From Moniliella sp. 'wahieum' (taxonomy: Eukaryota > Basidiomycota > Moniliellomycetes > Moniliellales > Moniliellaceae), in contig RSEE01000004.1 in NCBI GenBank assembly GCA_003971905.1, positions 1,116,001 to 1,180,000 of the forward strand: a stretch of 64,000 bases of DNA, written 5' to 3'. Made by a program: the position numbers and the translations under genes. Shown piece by piece: positions 4,469-53,828 of the stretch. The notes beneath the pieces were generated by a model that was not told the origin of the DNA, did not search any database, and saw only the letters and a list, made by a program, of their open reading frames with translations. The first letter of the stretch is position 1; the number at the start of each line of letters is the position of its first letter.

Positions 4469-4940
4469 GATGCGGTCATGCTCACCCAGGGAGCGTGGGA
4501 GGGGGGGGGGGATGGGATGGGAGAAGGAAGAGTGGGTGTGTCTGTATCCGACTACGCTCGAAGCAGGCCGACACCGATGCTTCATCTTCCTCACTGCGCC
4601 TACGCGGACATACGCCCTTTCACCCTGGCCTACATGGCGTGACGTAAAGGACCCGTCCGTTGCAATTTCACTGGGACACCACAGACACCTCGAGTCAAGC
4701 TAGTCAACCCTAACCCCCACACTCAGGTAACCCTATGGCCATTCAACAATATTCATGGCCAACCTCGCTCCTCGCCCTTCAAGCTAGCTTCAAGCTTCAA
4801 GCTGCAAGCCTTAACCCTAAGCTTGAAATGACATCATTGAGTAATTCCTGTGATGTCTTTCTGCTTGGATCGGCTCGCCACTGCCTTCACAACTTAATTC
4901 CTCTCGACCACCATTTCCATTTGCTGCTTTCTGAACTCAT

Positions 4941-7130: not shown

Positions 7131-7378
7131 ATTTCTGCATCCATATCATTGACAGAGCTTAAGGCTGTGGAACGGAGAAACGCTACGCCTAAACGGACCC
7201 ATTCATCTTGCGTGTGCTGCCTGATATATTAACACCAACCCCGTTTGAGGAACCAGAGGAATCGCCAGGGGATCAGGATCCTCTGGTGCCCGCCATCCCT
7301 TCCATACCCGAGATAGCGCGTGTGTAGATACGGATGAACGTGGTAGACATCAGAGCGAGGAACCATTTCCATTGAGCA
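7131..7378 (-). repeat. Dispersed repeat family, copy A
   Basis: Read on the minus strand, this ~250-bp block matches the plus-strand blocks at 11957-12190 and 16744-16925 and part of 49925-50035. Shared landmarks are CCTTAAGCTCTGTCAATGA at one end, a GGTTTAGGC/GTTTAGGCGTAGCG block, and a CAGAGGATCCTGATC/CTGGTTCCT block. It sits just downstream of the Gag-like stretch, so it may be a terminal repeat. No open frame runs through it. Confidence 0.75.
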
Positions 7379-11956: not shown

Positions 11957-12190
11957 TCTCAGTGGAAATGGTTCCTCGCTCGGATGTCAACCACGTTCAT
12001 CCGTGTCCATACGCGCTTCCTAGGGTACGGGACCGGATGGCGAGAGCCGGAGGGTCCTGATATCCTGGCGATACCCCTGGTTCCTTGACTTAGTGGCGCT
12101 TCCAAGTAACCCCCGCAAGATGACGGTTCGGTTTAGACGTAGCGTTCCCCCTGTCCCAGCCTTAAGCTCTGTCAATGAAATGGACGCGGA
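11957..12190 (+). repeat. Dispersed repeat family, copy B
   Basis: Plus-strand counterpart of the block at 7131-7378. Shared stretches include GGAAATGGTTCCTCGCTC near the left end, AACCACGTTCATCCGT, GGGTCCTGATATCCTGGCG, CGGTTTAGACGTAGCGTT and CCAGCCTTAAGCTCTGTCAA. Copies A and B are inverted with respect to each other and flank the HMG-box gene at about 4.6-kb spacing. Confidence 0.75.
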
Positions 12191-12632: not shown

Positions 12633-12709
12633 GTTGAAACGTTGAACGTCAACTGACCAATGACCAGTGACCGCTGACCGCTGACCGCTGACCGGTGACC
12701 GTTGAACCT
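12633..12709 (+). repeat. Heptanucleotide array, TGACCNN type
   Basis: Eight consecutive 7-bp units lie in perfect register from 12654: TGACCAA, TGACCAG, TGACCGC three times, TGACCGG, TGACCGT, TGAACCT. Two TTGAACG-like units precede them (12633-12650). The constant part is TGA and the variable part a tetramer, the same grammar as in the other arrays of the window. Confidence 0.9.
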
Positions 12710-13001
12710 GTGCGTGCGAGCAGGACATGGGCGGACAAATTGCAGCCCCTAGCACGCGTCCATGGCACCCAGGTACAAAGCAGCAGCGCTGAAGCGCTGA
12801 AGCGCACTGAAGGAATGTAGCCCAAGAACCGCATGGGTTGAATCTCAGAAGGACTGCTGTTTCGCCGATTCCGTCCAGGAACGGCGTCCCTGTTACGCGA
12901 GTTGCCGAACTGTCTCTCCGCCCTGTGGCTCTGCCTTACAAATGGGACAGCCCTCTCGTTCAGCATAGGCGTCACGCGTCAGCGCCACTGAGGCCCTTGA
13001 A

Positions 13002-13140
13002 TGAAGCTTGAAGCTTCAACTTGAAGCTTGAAGCTTGAAGGATGATCGATGATGCATGATGTTGATGATGCAGATGCATGATGCATGATGCATGATGCAT
13101 GACATGTGACATGTGACACGTGACGCGTGGACGTCACACG
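13002..13140 (+). repeat. Composite heptanucleotide array with changing unit
   Basis: A 7-bp array in which the unit changes step by step. From 13022 the units are TGAAGCT (twice, after an imperfect lead-in), TGAAGGA, TGATCGA and TGATGCA. After a short irregular patch come TGATGCA three times (13079-13099), TGACATG twice, TGACACG and TGACGCG (13121-13127). Most tetramers after TGA are self-complementary. The array ends with the inverse form (GTCACACGTGTCA), giving a palindromic tail. It lies about 500 bp upstream of the symporter gene. Confidence 0.92.
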
Positions 13141-13659
13141 TGTCAAACCTTGGATCTTGGGCCAGAGTCTCACGCTCACTGAGCTCAGGCTCAGTACTCA
13201 GTGCTGGTACTGATTGAGCGAGCACTGAGGCGCTGAGCTCCATTATCGGTTAATGATTGCCTGCATTAATCAAGTTTACGTTTATATTAATCGGTTTAAA
13301 TTTAAATTCATTTAAATTTAAAATTTAATCCTACTCGATATCCACACGAATTTCCCGCACAGTGCCCCTCCGCTGGACTGACGGCGTGTGGCCTGTGGCA
13401 TGTGCCCCCTGTTCCTGTTTGCGGCGGGCTGAACGTTGAATCGAAGCCGCATGGCGCCTGCCTCCATCCCAGGCATTGGGCCGAGATGCTGAGAGAAACA
13501 GCGTACAAAATTCACCGCCACCGTTATCCCTTCCTTTTCTCCACCGCCTACGCCTTTGCCTCTCCCCATCGCCTCCTTCGCCCACTCTTCTTCCTGCCTC
13601 CCAGCAACCGCCAACCGCCAACCACCCCCCTCACGACTGCGTGCACGCGCTTCGCCTTC

Positions 13660-16471: not shown

Positions 16472-17523
16472 TTGCTGGCCCTCCCGAGCTATCCCGAACC
16501 TGATTCCCCCCCTTCGGTGTTTCATCTTACGCCCTTCCTTGAAACCCCCCCTATTCTCCTGTCCCATCCGTACTTCTCCCTGGCCTTGACTGAATCACAG
16601 ACTACTACCCCTGCCCTCTTAGATCTTATGTCGCAACGTGGTTATGAGCTGTAGGATTGCGGAGGCGATGTAGTTATATGTATGTGGACGACGTATGATG
16701 GAGAAGCAACGATAGTAGGATGAAGCTGATGAAGGGAGCCAGGCAGGCGCGCTACCTTAGGTGTGGGAACGGATGCCGGGCACCAGAGGGTCCTGATCTC
16801 CTGGTGGTTCCCTGGTTCCTTAAGCGGGGTTGGCGCTATCAAGCAGCACACCCAAGATGAATGGGTCGGGTTAGGCGCAGCGTTTCTTCTCCCCCAGCCT
16901 TAAGCTCTGTGAATGATATCGATGAATAGACAGATTAGTACAAAATAATGGCACGAAGACATGAAAACGAGGTGTCCAACTAGGACAAAAGTGACTCGCT
17001 AATAGCTTCACCCTAGTACTCAAAAGCTTCAAGCTTCTTCAAGCTTCAAGCTTTTTGCCGCAGCTCCGTCCCCGCACGGAAAGCCAATATAGCTTTTCAT
17101 CCCGCCGCCGTGCAACTCATGCGCGGGGGCGGCCTGGAGTGGCACGGCGCCAGTGGCCCGCCCTCCCTCGGGCCTGCTCACGCTCGCATGGGCCAGCGCT
17201 GGCGCTGCTGCCCCTGCTGACCCGCTCAACCCCCAGCACAGCGTCAGTGTCCTCCGCCTCGCCTCTTTAGGAGCGCATATACGCGCACAGCCGATACGAG
17301 GCCTGGCTTGCCACCGACCGCTGCTGGACCGATGCCTGTCTCTGCTTTCCACCACCACCTCCACGCAGGCCCGCTTCCGCACTCAGTGCGTATTGCCCAA
17401 GCCCGTCCGGCTCTTGTCCGTGCTGCGACTGACCTTCTGTGCACTTCCGTTATCCTTTTCTACCTCTGCTCCTCTCATACACCATAGGAAAGAGCACCCT
17501 CGTAACCCATCCATTTGTTCACT
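16472..17523. other. Intergenic DNA and 5' leader of eIF4A
   Basis: Holds copy C of the dispersed repeat, a TTCAAGCTTCAAGCTT heptad patch at about 17027-17055, then a C-rich promoter-like stretch to the eIF4A start. A pyrimidine tract and a possible 3' splice site (ACCATAG near 17482-17488) suggest a 5' leader intron, but I cannot place its donor. Confidence 0.4.
16744..16925 (+). repeat. Dispersed repeat family, copy C
   Basis: Third copy, same orientation as copy B. It shares CAGAGGGTCCTGATCTCCTGG, CCCTGGTTCCTTAAGCGGGG, GGTCGGGTTAGGCGCAGCG and CAGCCTTAAGCTCTGTGAA-like blocks with copies A and B, and is diverged by substitutions and small indels. It stands alone between the symporter and eIF4A. 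Confidence 0.75.
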
Positions 17524-21021: not shown

Positions 21022-24000
21022 TGCTGGGGCCGTTTCGCGAACAGGAGAGGGTAATATATCGGCCGCAGTCGGAGTATTAGCCCGCCTGTAGAGCGTAGTA
21101 TTGCTGCGGTGTTGGATGGAGATGGTAACAACTACTAAAACACTGCGATGGCCCACAAAAGGAGAGAGCCCCAGCGAAAGACGATGATGGGGGAGGAGAG
21201 ACTTTGGTCTGAAGACACTCTATAAAAATGATAAAAGGGAAATATAGAGAGAGAGAGCTCTAAGAGTTGATATGCTGGCTCACATACAACAGGCAGAATG
21301 GGAAGGGACTGACGTATGTATGTGCAGATAAATGTAGAGACCAGAAGACAAAAGAGGAAGCTATCACGCGTTTTCACAATGAGTACGGATAAACAGTATG
21401 AAATGGGGCCCCGATCAATCATGTATATGGTGTGGTGTTCTGCGCTATCCCGCGTGTGTTGCGGTGCGTTGCGGTATGTTGCAGTATGTTTTGCGGTGCA
21501 CTGTGGTGGATGTGTGTGGCATGTTCATGAAATGTCGAGAAAGAGCAGCACTTATTGCTTGAGTGCGGGGAGGAACAATCTTTATTCAAGAGAAAAAAAG
21601 AAATGGTAAAGTGCAAAAGAAGCAGGGCAGCACACTCTGTCTCATTCACAACGCTACTAAGTACTAAGGATGCTTCGCTTACACACCCACAATAGCAGTC
21701 GGCCTGTCTCTTCCGTACCTATGCCATGATGCAGATCGATGAGTACTCGATGAGTAGAGGATGTATATGGGACGCCGAATCTCCGAAAACACGTATCGCC
21801 GCTGCTGGCCAAGTATTACATTTACATGTTACATGTTACACCAGCTTATATTTTGTAACATGTAACCCGAGAATTTGGCATACGTGGATGCGCCAGACAT
21901 ACGCAGCCACATGCCTTTTGTATTGCCTTCGTGTGTCTGTTCATATTGTCAAACACCACACATGCATTTACACACTCCACAATGCCCTTCGTCTCTCACT
22001 CGCTCCGTTGTACCCACCGCAGGAGCGATTTTCCTCTTCTTCCTTCGCTAGTTATGGCTTTAGCGCTTATCAGCAAGCGTTTCGACCCGTGTTGTACTAT
22101 GTGTATGCATATACAAATAGTACCACCGCGTGGCTCATGCTTTGGCTAACGTCCCTTCAGTTCCTCCTCAGGTCTAGGAGTTCCGCTGTCTTCTCTCGGT
22201 TTTTTCCTTTTCTGCAGATTAGCCCCTGGTGGCGAGTCACTGCTTGATGTTCCTCTGTAGGTGTTACTGGTTGGCTTAGACCACTACCACCACACTAGTG
22301 CGATTGCATCACTCTCGAGGACCATCCAGACTCCAGAGGTCTCATCAAGTAGTAAGTGCTATTGTGCCGTAACCACCTGGCGAAGCGGATGGCCCCTGCT
22401 TCCTCTCGCTGCCTTTGCCTGATTAATGATTCTGGATGCTGCTCACATGACGCTCACATCGCTTATTTTGCTATTGTGCTGCTATGGTGACTGGCTTCAC
22501 CGGCTGTGAGACACTTCCGTCCCACTCTAGCCCCTGAGACTCTGCCGACTCCGACGGCTGTGGTGGCGCGCATGTGGCCACGTATTATAAGCCAGAGGGA
22601 CTATTAGTATAATTATAGCCTTCTCCTGTATTATAACCTCGTCCCCTGTTTCCTACCACCGACGCCTATCTCTCGCCCACAATCGATCGCCTATAGCCTG
22701 CGGTCATATACGATTTAGTATCCATTTCGGTCTCCATATCCGGGTTATCAGGATGTCGCTAATACAGTTGGTCCTTTTGTGCCCCGGGCGAGTTGCATGA
22801 TGCATGATGCATGGGACCTGTGTTTGAGCTTTCGGAAAAGATCAGGAACTTAATGGAGATGGACCACATATGTTACGGGGCCCCAGATGACATGTGACAT
22901 GTGACACAAGGGAGGTGATATGTTTGTGCGTACCGGAAGATGGCACACGAGAGAACCACCGCAACTGTCATGGGGGAAGTACCGAGGTGGTAACCCCCTG
23001 TAGTTTAGGGGTATAAATATAAACCCTTGGACAGGTCAATCGGTGTATCGTACCTTAGGTTCTGCTCCAGATCCTGGTTAAACCGAGCGGGTGTAGAGGC
23101 GAGGGAGAGACCCTCTATTAGTTTGGGTGGCTGCCTGCGTGCAAAGGCCGCAGCTCAGACCCTCCGAGATAGGAGCCGCGTACGTAGGTCGTTAGACCAG
23201 TTGAAGGGGGCCAGGGCTCCGAAGTTACTCTGTTCCTCACAGCGTTACTACACTCGGTACGCTGTAGTAGGCGGGAACAGACAGAGTCCTAAAGAAGAGC
23301 AAGCGCTACTGATGCATGATGAGAGTAACCGCGGCTTGCAGCGTACTCGACGTAAGTCGTAAATTCGTAAGCGTAAAGGGTGTGGTAGAAGATGGAAGGG
23401 CGAGAGAGGAACGGGTAGTCGTGGAGACCAAAGAGGAGACAGGATAGTCGACAAGGACCACAGCTAGGAAGCCTTAGACATGGCTGCTTTTATATACAAC
23501 AGAAGGAAGCAGGCCTCAAGTGCCTCATGACAGGTATAGACAGAATGTGGGTTAGGGTTACACTTTCCTGTGAGGCAAAGACTAATGCACAACAGCCCAT
23601 GCTTTAATTTGACTTCTTGGGAAACAAAAGCACACAGAATGCGTCAAGAACTTGGCGTATATACCATGGATACCATCCCAGCACTGCAGAAACCTTTCTT
23701 CCTCCTATATAGTGAGCGCCTATAGCCCCATGCCTCACTGGCCGAGTTCAGACTCAGCTGGCACCGATGCGCTCGATGCTTATTAACCCCAGTGTCTCCA
23801 GTGTCTCTCTCAGATCCCACATATTGTGACCGGTGACCGCGTCAGCCAGAGCCCGGAGGCCCTGAAGTTCGGACTCAGCGCCCTCGTTGAACGTTGATGA
23901 ACGTTGAACTGGCTACGTTCGGTGCAACAATGTCAGTTGTGGATGAAAACGTCATACAGGGGGGGTAACCGGTAAGGATGACGACGAGTGTGTGTGTGGG

Positions 24001-26680: not shown

Positions 26681-26776
26681 AGGCTGCAGCCGGGATCGAA
26701 CCGACGACCTGCGGCAACTACAAGTCTGGGGCATGCTCGCCGAAGACCGCCACTCTGGCCACTGAGTTATGCAACC
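26681..26776 (-). tRNA. tRNA-Arg (anticodon TCG) with 23-nt intron
   Basis: On the minus strand the acceptor GGTTGCA/TGCAGCC, D stem ACTC/GAGT, anticodon stem GCGGT/GCCGC and T arm GTCGG-TTCGATC-CCGGC pair well. The variable region is AGGTC. The loop begins CT-TCG-G, giving anticodon TCG; a ~23-nt intron follows position 37 and the loop ends with T. The total of 96 bases leaves 73 mature. The discriminator would be T, unusual for arginine. A GTAG inside the intron could mislead a scan into calling tyrosine. Confidence 0.75.
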
Positions 26777-31795: not shown

Positions 31796-32601
31796 TGGCG
31801 GTGGTAGCAGTGTTAAACGTTAATCTTACCAACAAAACGACCCTGCCTGTGTCATACTTTTGGCTGATGTCACTCTCATTTCCGATTTTTCATCCCAAGC
31901 GTCTCGCTTTCCCTGTTTCTTCCACTTCGCACGTACCATGTCCTCTCTGCTCTTGCTTCTTCCCCATGAACGACTACTACATCCTTTGACCTAGTCTCGA
32001 CTCTGGTCTCCCTCGCCTTAGCCCCGACTGTGACACTGCCGAAGGCCCTCAAGCTGTCACTATATGGTCAGGCCCTCTGTCAGATGTCAGCCCCCTTGAA
32101 GACGAAAGCGAATTCCGCGGAGCTGCTAATAAGCCTGAGGGACTGCAAGAGGCATCTTGGCCAAACGCCCAAGCCACACCATGCGGCTCCATAACGCATA
32201 ACCGCTTACGAGCGTGATGATATTTACTGGGAACAATCAATTATGCAACATCGAGTTATCAATCCGGCTCAGGGAAGACGGCAACCAGTTCCCGCAGCTC
32301 ATCGGTCCCTATACTTTAAGCGATCTGCCAGCACGTGCCCCGTCTACGGGCCTTATTGTGGGGGCCATGTGCGTGCTGTCAAACGCACGAGAGGTGCCAA
32401 GGTCCAAAGTGGAGGTGTGGAGGTGTCTGAGATCTGGGTGCGAACCATCAGTGCATCAGCACTTTTCTGGGTGGCATGTGCGTCAGTAAGGCCGGAGCCA
32501 GGTCTAGCAGACATCATCACCTCGGCTGCCTTATTATAGCCGTAGCCTCTATAGTCTTAGTCGAGTTTAAAGGTAAGCTGGTAATGAGGGAAGGTTTTAG
32601 A

Positions 32602-32622
32602 TAATCGATAATCGATAATCGA
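32602..32622 (+). repeat. Heptanucleotide array, TAATCGA type
   Basis: Three perfect tandem TAATCGA units (TAA plus the self-complementary TCGA), directly followed by TCA and then by two AAAGGCCT units. Confidence 0.9.
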
Positions 32623-33843
32623 TCAAAGGCCTAAAGGCCTAAAGCGATTAGCGCGTAAAGGGGCGATGCGTATAGTGCACTTAAATGGGCTAAGGTTAGC
32701 GTAAGTTGAGCGCTAATCAAGAGCATTGACCGAAACATGAGGCTGCACCACCCAGAAAGCTCAGAACCGCGGTTCAGATTCGCAGGCCTCAGATCTCGGA
32801 TCTCAGACATGGGTGGCGGCTGGGCCTCAGCGGTCAGGCTCTCAGACTGCGCTGGTACTGTGTTGCCGACGGGTGAGGTGAACTGTCTGAATATCTAGAT
32901 CGGAGCGTGTAGCACTAACGCCGCAACAGCGCGGCGGCAGTCACCATGCACGAGGTATGCCGCCGGTGTCCGCAGGCTCAGCCGCTAGCAGTGCAGCGCA
33001 GCGTATGTACAAGTATGCACGGACCAGCGTGCATCATGCATCACTAACCCTGCCATTGGCACCCAACCTCCCTTCTGAGATCTGACTGAGGACAGAAGAG
33101 GCGTTCCATGTCCGTGGATGCCACACTCTAGTAACGCGTGGTGCATCACGCGTCACGTACTGCGTGGGTAGTCGTGGGCAGGGAGAAATGGACAAATCGA
33201 TGCCGGAACTGTCATGGTGCCTTTCGTGCAGCCCCCCGCAGTGTATGTATGTCTGATCGTTTATACTGAGTGCACCAATCAATCAGATGGTCTGAGACTG
33301 GTGAGCCGGTAGAATCCGGTGAGATCGAGGCGAACGTAGCCTCCATCCATTCATTGGCCATCGATGGGACGGGTGTGAAGCTGTGAAGAATATTGCATGA
33401 GAGCGTTGGGTGGCCAATTCAGACGCTGTTTCGGCGTACCTGGCCGAGTTTTGGCAATACGCAAGGCTTGCCTGCGCCTTGTCCTCCAGAGAAAGAAGAC
33501 TGGGCATTTGCCCTGCTCCTTGCTTAGTTTACCCGCGGACCCTCTCACTCCCATCGGGTTCACCGGAACCGGCGCTCGGGCCATTGCCTACCACTGCGCC
33601 CGCAACGAATGGTGCGATCTGGGAGGGCCCGATGCACCTGATGCCTGATGCCTGACCTGAACCTGAAAAGCTTGACGCCTGAATATGGAAGCGCTGGCCC
33701 ATGGAGTTACAGGGCATGTGGTACACGCGCTGCCAGGGTGCTGCTGGGGCGCTCTTGAAGAGCTTGAAGCTTGACTAGTGGCTAGTGACTGTACCCGAAC
33801 GGAGGCTCTTCGCTCTAAACCTATACCTGCATCCTGTGTCGGG

Positions 33844-35087: not shown

Positions 35088-36328
35088 ATGCCTCTCGACA
35101 AGGAAGAAACGCCTAGGGGTTTCCCAACTCGCGTATGTTGTTGATAGATATGAAGCAAGCCGTCCGTTCATCATGCATTTTGCGTACAGTTTCGTAAGAC
35201 GTTGCCCCCCCCCCCCCCCGACAGCTGTAATCACCAGTGCGGCTGTGCTGTTATTTGAACAAGGTAGAAGAATGTGTCTGGAGCCACAAGTACTACTGAA
35301 ATGGGTGCATCTGTGAAGGGAATACGTTTGCGGAATGGTATACGTGCTGGTCTCGAGGTGCGATGCACCTGTTGGGCACACTGGGACGGCTGAATGCGCC
35401 CAGCATATACGGCGTGGCTGCGCTGGCTCACAACTTGCGTGGCCCAAGCGCAGGTATGGAGGCACCATATATGACGTCAGATTCAGATGGCATGCATGAC
35501 ACAGAGCTACTGCGGCGGCCATCGATCACTCGACCACCGCTCGCAAATCACAAGTCGCTTGCCGTCACGCGTCAGCGTTAGCATCAAGCTTCAAGCCAAG
35601 CTCTGAAGGATCTGGAGCTTGAGTTCAATAAGCTTGAAGCTTGAAGCTTGAAGTGAGGCTCATCGACATCGCGCTGCGGAACCGGGCATATGGTCACAGT
35701 GCGGGGTTGTGGGGTGGATGGGAATGGGGGCTGCCAGGCTGGGTGTGGCTGGGCGGCTGATGTATGCATGATGCCGGGACAGGGGACTGACGGAGGCGGC
35801 GGCGCGCAGATGTCCGGCCGGACGCGGTAGCATGCACGATGTCAAGGCCCGACGTGGCACAGCTAGTGCATGGACAGGGATTGCGCATTGCCACCGACAG
35901 ACACTTACCGAGTCGCTGTCGCGCTAGTCGGTGGGTCCTGCAAGCCCCTGCAGGCTCCTGCACGGGGGGCAAGGTGCCAGCCGGCGGGAGGCAGGGGCTG
36001 GTGCCAGCCGACGAGAAGCGAGCAAACAAGAAAGCTAGTCGCTTGCTGTTTCCCCTTTCAGCTGAACGAGCGCTCGTTCAGCGCCGATAGTTCGACCTGT
36101 TCGACTGCCGAATTTCTGTGCCGTGGGATAAATACGAGAAGTGGATCTCTTGGGCGTCATCGACATCGCGGGCGACCTGGCAGGCAGGGCAGTAGGCTCC
36201 TTCTCATCATACCAGCGGGCAAGTGGGTATTGTCTGCTGTCTACCACCGTGGCAACCATACAGCAGCCTCCTGCACCCTCACCGCTGTCCCCGCTGTTCT
36301 CCTCTGCCGTTTGTGTACAGTATCCGTT
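35088..36328. other. Intergenic DNA
   Basis: No gene recognised. A run of 15 C residues lies at 35205-35219. AGCTTGA heptads (TTGAAGCTTGAAGC) lie at about 35631-35652, and GTCACGCGTCAGCG at about 35567-35580. An inverted GAACGAGCGCTCGTTC palindrome lies at 36064-36079. Confidence 0.45.
36064..36079. repeat. Perfect 16-bp palindrome
   Basis: GAACGAGCGCTCGTTC is fully self-complementary. It lies about 250 bp upstream of the RING-protein start and could be a dimer binding site or chance; its core AGCGCT resembles the heptad tetramers. Confidence 0.6.
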
Positions 36329-47471: not shown

Positions 47472-47524
47472 CATCATGCATCATGCATCATGCACGAGAA
47501 GTGCTGTGACATGTGACATGTGAG
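47472..47524 (+). repeat. Heptanucleotide arrays, TCATGCA and TGACATG types
   Basis: Three TCATGCA units (CATCATGCATCATGCATCAT...) are followed about 15 bp later by GTGACATGTGACATGTGA. Both are 7-bp arrays of the TGA/TCA plus self-complementary tetramer kind. Confidence 0.9.
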
Positions 47525-50846: not shown

Positions 50847-53793
50847 CTAGGGAACGGTGGTTGCCGTGGCTCCGGTGAACGATCACACAGTTGGACAATG
50901 GAATGGTCGGCAGCAGAACGGTTGTTAAGGTATCAACGCTGTCCCATAGAACGGTGGCCAAAAAAAGGTGACAACGACGGAATGGTGGCGATGGTTGGGA
51001 CGACGGAACGGTGGCGAAAGTGGCGACGACGGACGGTTGCTACGGTGGCCCATCCTACCCAAGGAGAGAATGCCAGGGTGGCTCGATGACGAAGCAACAG
51101 CCAAGAGCAGGCGCCTCACTTCCATCGGCAACCCAGCCCTCGCTCTCCATCTTCTGATATGTCAAGTACGGAATGCACTCTGAGCCTGGGCAGCCTTTCG
51201 CCCACCCGATTCTCTGCGTGACACGCCAGCCACGCCTTTCTGTTCTGACTCCCTTGTTTTCCTGCTGACAACGGAACGGCATGCTACGCCGCACTGAAGA
51301 TGATGGAATGTTAACCTATGTCGCATGTTGGAGTCTCTGTTAACAATGGAATGGTGGACAGTGGGGATGGTGGGGAAAGAGGCCTATGGGAATGGTGGAC
51401 CAACAGGGGGTAAGGGGCATATGCATATGAAAGGGTGTGGACTATAGGGGTTAAAGATGGCCGCGTGTGTTCGTAACCAATTAACACGGAGGAAAGCTGG
51501 GGCGAAGCCCCAGCCCTTCAATACAGACGCACGGTAAAAGCATCAGGAGTACGCATACGGGCCATAGGCCCGGTGGTCCCCTAGTGGCGAGATATCTCAC
51601 ATTGGTTGAGCGCTCTCTCAGACTCACAGATCTCAGATCTCAAAAACAGATCTCATTAATCATTTCCAATTCCTGTTGCTCGTCCGCCTCACTCTCTTCC
51701 TTGGTTACCCTCTCGCCTTCGCTATGTGTCTTCTTTCTGCTCCTGCTTCTCTCCCGCGTTTATTGTGCTACACCGGGGCCTTGTCGTTACTGTTGTTCTT
51801 TTCTTAATCGCCCCCGACGGATCAGTTTTGTTGCGTGACGCGTGATGAGAGCGGGAGATGTCCTGTCACATGCATGCCAATGTCACATGTCCCATGTCTC
51901 TGCATGCCACATGGTACTCGACTACAAAGTCTCTCACTTGGGACATCCTTCTGTTACATGCATGCATCATCGACATCGATATCGATCCTCCTTCGCTTCT
52001 TGCACTTCATGCAATGCACATGGTGCCATTGGCGCCTCGGTCTCAGATCTCAGCGTCAACATCACCGGCATCACCAACCTCTTGGCATGAGCATGAGGGC
52101 TGGCACCGAGAGCACACCATATATAGCCAGGAAAACACAGATATGTTCAATGGTGGGCACCCACTCACTATACTACACGTACTACACGTACCACCCTGTC
52201 ACTATATCATTAGGCTTTGAGGGAAAAAACATGATTCACCACGGAACATCAATCAAGGGCACCACCACTTTGGTCATCGGATCATCTCATTTAGTCTTTA
52301 AAAACTCCACACTCTCTTGCGGCCGCGGTTGTCCACACTTTGATCTACATCGATGATCACGTTCATCACGCGTATCGCCGATACCGTGTAGGCCAGACCG
52401 TAGGTCTCGGGCTCAGATCTCATGCGCTCATGCCCCCCTCAGGACCAAGCAATACAAGTCAAGATTCAATAGCGGCTGCGTCAGACCTTCCTATTACCTC
52501 CATCTCCAAGGCTGGTATTGTGGAGCTAACAGGTAATTGCTAGAATGGCCCTTTGAATATTTTAAACTTTGAAAACAGACCGAGCAGCGTTGATTTCATG
52601 TTTCTCCCCGGTATTTTAATCGGGGCGAAAAAGCAATCTTGCGCCTGGAACAGGATCGCTGGGAGCCGATGGCCCGACACAGGCGCTGTGCAGATCCCGC
52701 CGAAGAAACTAGCCCGCCTTGGCCGCGCGTACCGAAGCAGTGCCCCCGTGCGGCTGTATGTGGGATGGGCGAGCGCGAACACCTGGATTCTTGGCTGTGT
52801 CGCTAGTCCAGTGCGGTGCGCGGGGAAAGGGAGCAGCCACTTTGGCGCCAACTGCATGCCGATCCAAATGTGCCGGCGCAAAGCGTGCCAATGGCCTTGG
52901 GCTCAGGGGGAGACTCAACTCAGACTGAGTCACTGCGTGCGAAGTGGGACATGCCCACCCTTGTGGGTTTGCAAGGACTGGCCGATATTACTTGCTTCAG
53001 GCCTAGCTTCTCTGGCGTTTTCAGCATGTCTTTCACCACCCAAAGTTGCAACGTGGATGGCACTCAAGCTCAAGAGTGCGCTAGTGCTTACGTTGGGTTG
53101 GTCTGCGTAGGCGCGAGAGGAATGGTTTGGATATTGTTCAATGCTGAAATGTTCAACTTTCACGTTCGTTCAGCGCTGGTGTTCATCACGCGTCACGTTC
53201 ATCGATCATCGATCATCGCCGACGGAGAGCACTGTGATTATTCGCGCAGACATTTGCGTGCTTACATGCATTACACAACGTTGCAACCCGAAAAGCAGGG
53301 CAAGAAACGGGCGGCAGAAGGTTGCAGAAGGCCAGCGCAGAACGTCGAAGGTGTCTGCGCGAGTGCGGGTGCAACGTACAGGAGGCGATCGTGCTTCGCA
53401 GGCGCGCGCGGGGGCTGGCCGTTACAAATCAATCGCCGGTTCCCAGGACGGAAGGGCAGAAAGTTGGATGGGCCCTGGAGGGGCTGCTGATGCGCTGGGG
53501 CGAGAGCTGCGCGGTGCTGGGGTGATATAAAACAAGCGGAGTCGGAAGCCCGACGTGGTTTCCAAAAGGAGCGTATACTGCGCTAGTGCTGCAGTTGCGG
53601 TTGAACAGCACGGCGCTTGCCCACGCGCGCACGGCCGGTACGGGTGGTGAGGCCTGAGGCTGGGGGCCTGTCCCGGTTGGTTTGGGGGCTTCCCAGGGTG
53701 CTTAGCTGCCGTGAGGCACTGGAGCGCTGCCGCGCCCAGGCACTCAGGCGTCACGCGTCAAGCCTCAGACTGCCGATACGCGTTAGAACTGGC

Positions 53794-53828
53794 GTCACAT
53801 GTCACATGTCACACGTCACGCGTCAGGC
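53794..53828 (+). repeat. Heptanucleotide array, GTCACAT to GTCACGC
   Basis: Five 7-bp units in perfect register: GTCACAT twice, GTCACAC, GTCACGC, GTCAGGC. This is the reverse-complement reading of the same unit progression seen at 13100-13127 (CATG to CACG to CGCG). Confidence 0.9.

Follow-up and report, generated by a model that had tools for sequence, protein, structure and literature searches.

Palindromic heptad arrays and a stereotyped 7-bp insertion at TxA sites in the genome of Moniliella sp. 'wahieum'

The composite array and its surroundings

The window, by which is meant the whole stretch of 64,000 nucleotides (64 kb) that was analysed, contains at 13002..13140 a composite array of 7-bp units that can be read as the outcome of 7-bp insertions at several TGA sites, some nested within one another and some side by side. 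An earlier note on this DNA had described heptads composed of TGA plus AGCT, AGGA, TCGA, TGCA, CATG, CACG or CGCG, and all of these are present in 13002-13130. The 7-bp phase is kept over most of this span and breaks near 13016-13021 and 13060-13078. The junction palindrome given in that note, TGACATGTCA, is absent from the array, the real junction being TGACATGTGA.

The array can be read with a single rule, TxAcd -> TxAcd.d'c'.TxAcd (right-type event), which on the other strand takes the form abTxA -> abTxA.b'a'.abTxA (left-type event). Across 12996-13150, ten exact events of this kind were undone one by one, reducing the stretch from 155 to 85 bp. A first block of two TGA.AGCT units followed by TCA (13002..13018) accounts for one of them. 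In the next block (13022..13045), formed by two TGA.AGCT units, one TGA.AGGA unit and a closing TGA, AGGA would be the original spacer that still separates two TGA sites. AGCT would have been generated by events on the first TGA, and these events could be of the left or the right type, since CT.TGA.AG is symmetric. On the second TGA, TCGA would have come from a left-type event and TGCA from a right-type one, as suggested by GATGA.TC.GATGA followed by TGATG.CA.TGATG at 13041..13061, both undone in the stepwise analysis. Both the sequence and its undoing give three TGA.TGCA units in a row, closed by TGA, at 13079..13102. In the last block (13100..13130), which runs through two TGA.CATG units, one TGA.CACG and one TGA.CGCG to a final TGG, CACG is read as another leftover spacer, lying between the CATG side and the CGCG side. 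The CGCG unit ends in TGG and therefore does not count among the ten exact events; we take it to have decayed. Judged from the sequence, an iterated 7-bp event would account for most of the mixed array, which on this reading needs no exchange of one tetramer for another, and the model predicts non-palindromic tetramers such as AGGA and CACG where an original spacer separates two TxA sites.

Other arrays in the window are of the same kind. A decayed TGA.CCGx array lies just upstream of the composite one (12653..12705), and the same grammar is found in (GATAATC)n at 32600..32623, (AAGCTTG)n at 35630..35653 and (CATCATG)n at 47472..47494. At 53793..53825, TCA is followed in turn by CATG, CACG and CGCG, making this a second array with the CATG/CACG/CGCG series. 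The window also carries, on the forward strand at 22966..23532, an LTR-like interspersed repeat of 567 bp (TGTCATG...CATGACA), whose copies serve for the before/after comparison presented below. This repeat is also found in L039, L027, L022 and L042, and at least 39 further matches to it in the genome have identities scored at 85-89%. Two further features were observed in passing. A repeat piece of ~185 bp at 12001-12190, ~0.8 kb upstream of the array, occurs again at 7134-7376 and 16748-16924 and has 43 other near-full-length genome matches with 93-98% identity. At 26681-26776, a tRNA was called by Rfam and not by ARAGORN, perhaps owing to an intron.

The 7-bp event at TxA

The assembly that was read comprises 69.5 Mb (69,494 kb) in 223 contigs, and its DEAD-box helicase and chitin synthase domains, along with rDNA of fungal appearance, suggest a fungus. 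Twenty 10-kb stretches from contigs C1-C4, four more from C5, C6, C12 and C41, and the 64-kb window, itself picked for its array, make up a sample of 304 kb, or 0.4% of the genome. The table of anchored heptads covers both strands of 200 kb outside the window, while the counts of periods, hexamer pairs, odd palindromes and masked palindromes cover 264 kb, the sample as it stood before the last four stretches. Expected values derive from Markov chains of order 2 or 3, which are not equivalent to real neutral DNA.

Within the window, the N4 is self-complementary in 37 of 61 cases of TGA-N4-TGA and in 33 of 52 cases of TCA-N4-TCA. In the 200 kb, this holds for 169/299 heptads with TGA/TCA anchors and 37/64 with TTA/TAA anchors, against ~5% for all other anchors (576/11,147; 650/11,275 with TTA and TAA counted in). 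The highest values among anchors other than TxA belong to ATG/CAT (33/262), which can overlap TxA arrays, and CTG/CAG (22/185). The 40 commonest tetramers listed after TGA in the 200 kb include 14 of the 16 palindromic ones; ATAT was seen elsewhere, and TATA was not seen. The regular heptads described in the earlier note are real, genome-wide and far beyond chance; what has to be revised in that note is its fixed TGA anchor, the rule being T-x-A with any base as x.

The same picture emerges from counts that are not tied to an anchor. Among the exact 7-bp duplications in the 264 kb, 113 of 172 are self-complementary bar one base, as opposed to 0/14 in a third-order Markov control, and no comparable effect was detected in that sample at periods 4, 5 and 8-24. 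Period 6 shows a weaker tendency, with 128 of 264 exact duplications having 0 or 2 mismatches to their own complement (16/67 in the control), and has no anchor-specific palindromic class. Neither of the outcomes that had been named as fatal to the original claim, namely equal use of all tetramers or a period 7 no commoner than 5, 6 or 8, was obtained. As a separate observation, exact 6-bp duplications are themselves in excess (264 vs 67) without following the TxA rule, perhaps reflecting a second, less specific short-duplication process. Palindromic hexamers of the form A-N4-T occur one base apart as 87 identical and 19 unlike pairs, where 0 and 1 are expected, and no such pairing was found in the 264 kb for hexamers with C..G, G..C or T..A outside. 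Odd palindromes with T.A around the centre and arms of at least 5 number 179 vs 51 expected; other loops and centres are much less raised, the next being a loop of 3 with A...T (123 vs 60).

The geometry of the event is defined by the junctions themselves. TxA.N4.TxA cases amount to 341 vs 10.2 expected. The 7-bp periodicity reaches (left, right) by (0,2) in 42 cases, (2,0) in 22, (1,0) in 17, (0,0) in 15, (0,1) in 7 and (1,1) in 5, and since the periodicity most often extends by two bases beyond one side only, the basic product is of 12 bp. In a grid of loop by stem by closing pair, in which boundaries were not demanded, a loop of 1 with a stem of 2 closed by T..A was counted 401 times vs 1.6 expected, whereas the same loop and stem closed by A..T, C..G or G..C gave 5, 8 and 11 (1.1, 3.3 and 3.8 expected). 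With loop 1 and T..A, a stem of 1 gave 30 vs 17.5 and a stem of 3 gave 2 vs 0.1. Other stems and loops were rejected as the rule: raised cells exist, such as loop 2 with stem 1 (C..G 84 vs 14.6; T..A 54 vs 5.6) or, for T..A with stem 2, loop 2 (8 vs 0.3) and loop 3 (9 vs 0), and none comes near 401 vs 1.6. The cell with loop 3 and stem 1 comes from reading these same arrays in rotation. When exact boundaries were required in a grid of copy length by bridge length, the combination 5+2 was the one TNA cell standing far above the other anchors, with 64 vs 0.6 expected, compared with 4 for ANT, 2 for CNG and 8 for GNC (1.0, 1.9 and 2.6 expected). At TNA, the 5+1 combination (14 vs 2.8) and plain copies of 6 bp (17 vs 3.2) and 7 bp (16 vs 1.4) are raised as well, and they are raised likewise at other anchors.

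Classified by flank, palindromic junctions comprise 107 of right type, 91 of left type and 101 internal ones (0.55, 0.65 and 0 expected), in addition to ~44 that match neither flank (7.8 expected). Classes that are not palindromic and match in just one half show a rise of at least twofold, which we read as decay. A double-complement class (9 vs 0.75) and a plain 7-bp copy class (16 vs 0.65) are also present. Pure tandem duplication of the 7 bp abTxAcd (16 vs 0.65) was rejected as the main route, because other anchors likewise show raised counts of 7-bp copies. Pre-existing palindromes were rejected as the substrate, as neither ANNNNT palindromes (718 vs 744 expected) nor TxA-centred 7-mers (725 vs 705) are in excess in the 264 kb once tandem contexts are masked. 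Longer TxA-centred palindromes remain slightly raised after masking (211 vs 178 for arms of 4; 21 vs 10 for arms of 6), an excess that we read as decayed leftovers.

The central base is usually kept. It is unchanged in 399 of 439 comparisons, and becomes its complement in 18, undergoes a transition in 13 and changes otherwise in 9; template switching that inverts x was rejected on this basis. The 18 changes to the complement, counted in the right-type grammar and including 12 of TCA then TGA and 4 of TGA then TCA, might perhaps represent a rarer inverted route, although this class is not clearly above other changes of x. Among 127 events, 15 of the 16 possible dinucleotides cd and all four x are represented; x is used about as in the background, while CG and TG are frequent as cd and AA, AT and TA are rare. 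Right-type events avoid T before TxA (18 vs 46) and favour C after TxAcd (87 vs 57).

The LTR-like repeat allows the state before the event to be compared with the state after it. At a first site, represented in the window by a single forward-strand event at 23310..23321, copies without the insert have TGATG between CTAC and AGAG, and copies with it have TGATG.CA.TGATG between the same flanks. Allowing 3 mismatches, this site is unoccupied at 70 places in the genome and carries the insert at 2; because the insert-bearing form was searched over a longer string, some copies may be missed. A second site of the same repeat is unoccupied at 92 places and occupied at 4, where the inserts read TCA/TCA twice, TAA/TAA once and TGA/TTA once, and its insert-bearing copies (L022 2128-2139; genome positions C5:1213324, C14:58104, C2:902115 and C11:513492) represent three x backgrounds. 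Since insert-free copies of this second site also have TTA, TCA and TAA, insertion there was probably recurrent and copied the local x, which suggests a recurrent hot site. Going by these copies, the insert-free state is most likely ancestral and the change a gain of 7 bp. Gap rows between repeat copies in the sample measured 7 bp in 18 cases, 6 bp in 5, 8 bp in 5 and 5 bp in 9; of the 18 rows of 7 bp, 7 fit the rule by our reading (one of these 7 rows by a generous one; 3 distinct sites in all) and 11 do not.

Taken at the level of sequence, the junction counts and repeat copies show that insertions occur at TxA in this genome that are stereotyped and exactly 7 bp long, and that the added 7 bp consist of a 5-bp direct copy plus 2 nt, the latter being the reverse complement of the dinucleotide beside TxA. 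They show as well that heptad arrays in phase are built up when events recur on one TxA or on TxA sites next to it, and that events on both sides of one TxA place different palindromes within one array. The feature is real and its elementary event is established on these comparisons; the palindromes are a by-product, made by reverse-complement copying of the flanking dinucleotide during insertion.

It is very unlikely that the pattern is due to ordinary slippage of microsatellites or to unequal exchange, in which units able to form hairpins would expand more readily. Arrays do hold runs of units, with up to 7 palindromic junctions, so that slippage may lengthen arrays already made. Nevertheless, new units arising by slippage would copy an existing unit of the same length, whereas unoccupied sites hold one TxAcd only and the first copy already carries 2 nt that are missing from them. 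The commonest run is of 12 bp and not 14, slippage does not account for the T..A closure, and nothing in it demands the unit symmetry seen in 113/172 vs 0/14 duplications, a symmetry that other periods lack save for the weaker tendency at period 6. As a founding event, slippage is contradicted by the before/after pairs as far as these sequences go, and later growth may still follow this route; the view already expressed in the earlier note, that ordinary slippage is insufficient, agrees with this.

Distribution and age of the events

The rule holds across the whole genome. TGATGCATGATG occurs 3,769 times vs 11 for its letters reversed, and the ANT-anchored ACTGCGCACTGC occurs 15 times, as opposed to 1,971 for its reversed string, which obeys the TNA rule. 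Undoable events in the 304 kb number 295 for TNA, 5 for ANT, 6 for CNG and 11 for GNC. Events are found in 25 of 25 stretches: the window has 96, and the 24 loci have 2-46 per 10 kb. Runs of two or more junctions make up 63 of 313, the longest having 7 palindromic junctions. No event was detected in 50 kb of E. coli, where control anchors also gave 0, or in 8 rDNA loci, which are partly masked. With a density of ~0.7 independent sites per kb, the events are scattered, and extrapolation from 0.4% of the genome gives an estimate of roughly 48,000 sites and 67,000 undoable exact insertions. Only 59 of 401 events lie in open frames of at least 200 codons, vs 32% of TxA sites; such frame counts are not gene annotation, and TGA/TAA units close frames by themselves. 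Outside this genome, an array of TCA.TGCA with four TCA in phase was observed at 4570-4600 of the IMG/VR contig L043, which is the one viral contig with the 19-nt array; it holds 5 rule-obeying 12-mers and 1 with an ANT anchor.

This distribution bears on the suggestion that the arrays might be sites for a dimeric DNA-binding protein. Dyad-symmetric units at fixed spacing are what a selected binding array would offer, and one recognisable consensus would be anticipated from it, whereas 15/16 dinucleotides and four x were found among 127 events, and no protein reads at least 14 of the 16 palindromic tetramers, combined with all four x, as one site. Moreover, the palindrome excess lies in tandem contexts, and the events are scattered at the density given above and are fewer in long open frames. 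We give this explanation almost no credence, and the dimeric site offered by the earlier note has to be abandoned, the unit being no selected palindromic binding site.

A library or assembly artefact is scarcely more credible. The evidence base is one assembly, which would leave room for such an origin, but artefacts would not be expected to be fewer in long open frames or to be common to two or more copies of a repeat. In addition, forms one constraint off are as common as perfect ones (463, with about 33 expected, next to 401), as for old mutations. The similar numbers of perfect and near-perfect forms suggest a process that is long-running and still recent.

Proposed mechanism and relation to known systems

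The explanation that we favour, and to which we would give somewhat better than even chances, is a self-templated 7-bp insertion at TxA through a break, a mini-hairpin and re-copying, a scheme that is in part inferred. A strand break would occur just 3' of efTxA, and the 5-nt end efTxA would peel and fold back, placing A on T across x. A polymerase would then add f'e' to yield a 7-nt mini-hairpin, ef.TxA.f'e', after which efTxA would be copied again off the template and the strand would be closed. At the next replication, the 7-nt loop extruded in this way would turn into a 7-bp insertion. Such a scheme would yield exactly +7, keep x, produce the one-sided relation to the flank and regenerate TxA for further events. 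Base pairing or a hairpin is required by the reverse-complement bridge, and the constraint on form proposed in the earlier note has stood up, while its copying mechanism with a fixed 3-bp anchor essentially matches the data once TxA is taken as the anchor.

One point against the scheme is that priming is weak from a hairpin that has one unpaired base, or from a triloop on 2 bp. Furthermore, thermodynamics alone would allow C..G closure and stems of 1 or 3 bp, and the observed counts are nowhere near this. The 11 gap rows that depart from the rule, the small class with x changed to its complement and the ~44 palindromic junctions matching neither flank also weigh against it. The scheme by itself gives no reason for T..A only or for a 5-nt peel, both of which would need a specific enzyme. 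The strictness of T..A and the invariable 5+2 geometry point to a dedicated, putative break-making enzyme with TxA specificity. The stronger proposal, that a dedicated enzyme or polymerase-nuclease pair recognises TxA genome-wide and writes a self-templated 7-nt mini-hairpin beside it, as an undescribed sequence-directed insertion machine that starts arrays from repeat-free sequence, is a tentative one whose chances we put slightly below even. The insertions probably have no function, being a mutational by-product that selection purges from genes.

An alternative that we consider unlikely is that each event is the footprint of a DNA transposon that would duplicate a 7-bp target with TxA at its centre (abTxAcd) and excise through hairpinned flanks. 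Hairpins nicked 2 nt from the tip would leave a heteroduplex (cdd'c' / b'a'ab), to be repaired to the right- or left-type form. This model gives both mirror forms, keeps the length of 7 and is symmetric about TxA; the 2 nt formally equal P nucleotides; the double-complement (9 vs 0.75) and plain 7-bp copy (16 vs 0.65) forms are both above chance; and Ac/Ds hairpin footprints are known in a fungus (PMC5873905). On the other hand, known hairpin footprints vary, whereas one form dominates here and the P lengths make up no ladder of similar size that is specific to TNA. A search of the 304 kb for transposons with inverted ends and TxA flanks found none: among pairs of inverted ends of at least 10 nt lying less than 6 kb apart, 0 of the 19 with identical 3-bp flanks have TNA flanks, and where the ends measure 12 nt or more, two of 251 pairs have matching 3- or 5-bp flanks, neither being a TxA-centred duplication around an element. 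A genome search with PF13359 (DDE_Tnp_4) at E <=0.001 returned 0 matches, a result that covers one transposase family and for which 1 of 14 control genomes, a bacterium, gave a match; a Harbinger transposase was rejected as the source on this basis. Finally, the runs of at least two junctions (63/313) would require repeated insertion and excision at each site, and the double-complement form can also arise within mixed arrays.

Returning to self-templated insertion at TxA, the 7-bp event fits no known class among those tested, and the pattern points to an undescribed DNA-copying process. In the titles and abstract openings returned by a literature search, no description of such 7-bp TxA insertions was found. 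The birth of tandem repeats from unique sequence is a long-standing question, and to our knowledge most known routes require a pre-existing repeat. Here, the founding event of tandem repeats is visible with an exact grammar, caught before and after in repeat copies, and frequent enough to be measured. Whatever activity is responsible would insert DNA in a site-selective and self-templating manner, which sets it apart from the mutational classes tested; if the proposal is true, the TxA machine would account for the scattered sites and exact insertions estimated above. Its signature can be searched in any genome with a few lines of code.

Several known systems share part of these properties. CNG triplet repeats undergo hairpin-driven expansion, with units self-complementary around one unpaired base; self-complementary tandem units are common to both, but here the unit is largely free, the closure is T..A and the founding events carry the rule. 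PIF/Harbinger elements make 3-bp target duplications of TNA type and excise precisely. They share TxA as a symmetric target core, in line with the dominance of the TGA/TCA and TTA/TAA anchors, but the genome search gave no DDE_Tnp_4 match. RAG/Transib are hairpin-forming transposases with P-nucleotide footprints. The footprints of hairpin transposases of the hAT type (Ac/Ds) likewise have short direct target copies joined by palindromic nucleotides, which formally derive from off-centre opening of a hairpin, and the 2 nt found here are indeed complementary to the flanking dinucleotide. Ac/Ds footprints vary in length and include deletions, and 128 Ds excisions in Candida albicans gave 28 kinds of footprint, the commonest two with 35 and 18 (PMC5873905). 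In contrast, one TxA-specific form dominates here, 5+2 alone being TNA-specific at such a level (64 vs 0.6), and no associated element was found in the sample. In polymerase theta snap-back, a 3' end likewise folds and copies itself, leaving reverse-complement insertions, with a reported median of 7 bp in cells (PMC4912351). Those insertions mix random and templated nucleotides in many lengths, whereas here the length of 7 bp, the 5+2 partition and the TxA anchor are fixed; the templating in cis by the adjacent strand is common to both, as the inserted dinucleotide is the reverse complement of its neighbour. Snap-back by polymerase theta is the nearest known chemistry to the 7-bp event at TxA, although without its fixed form.
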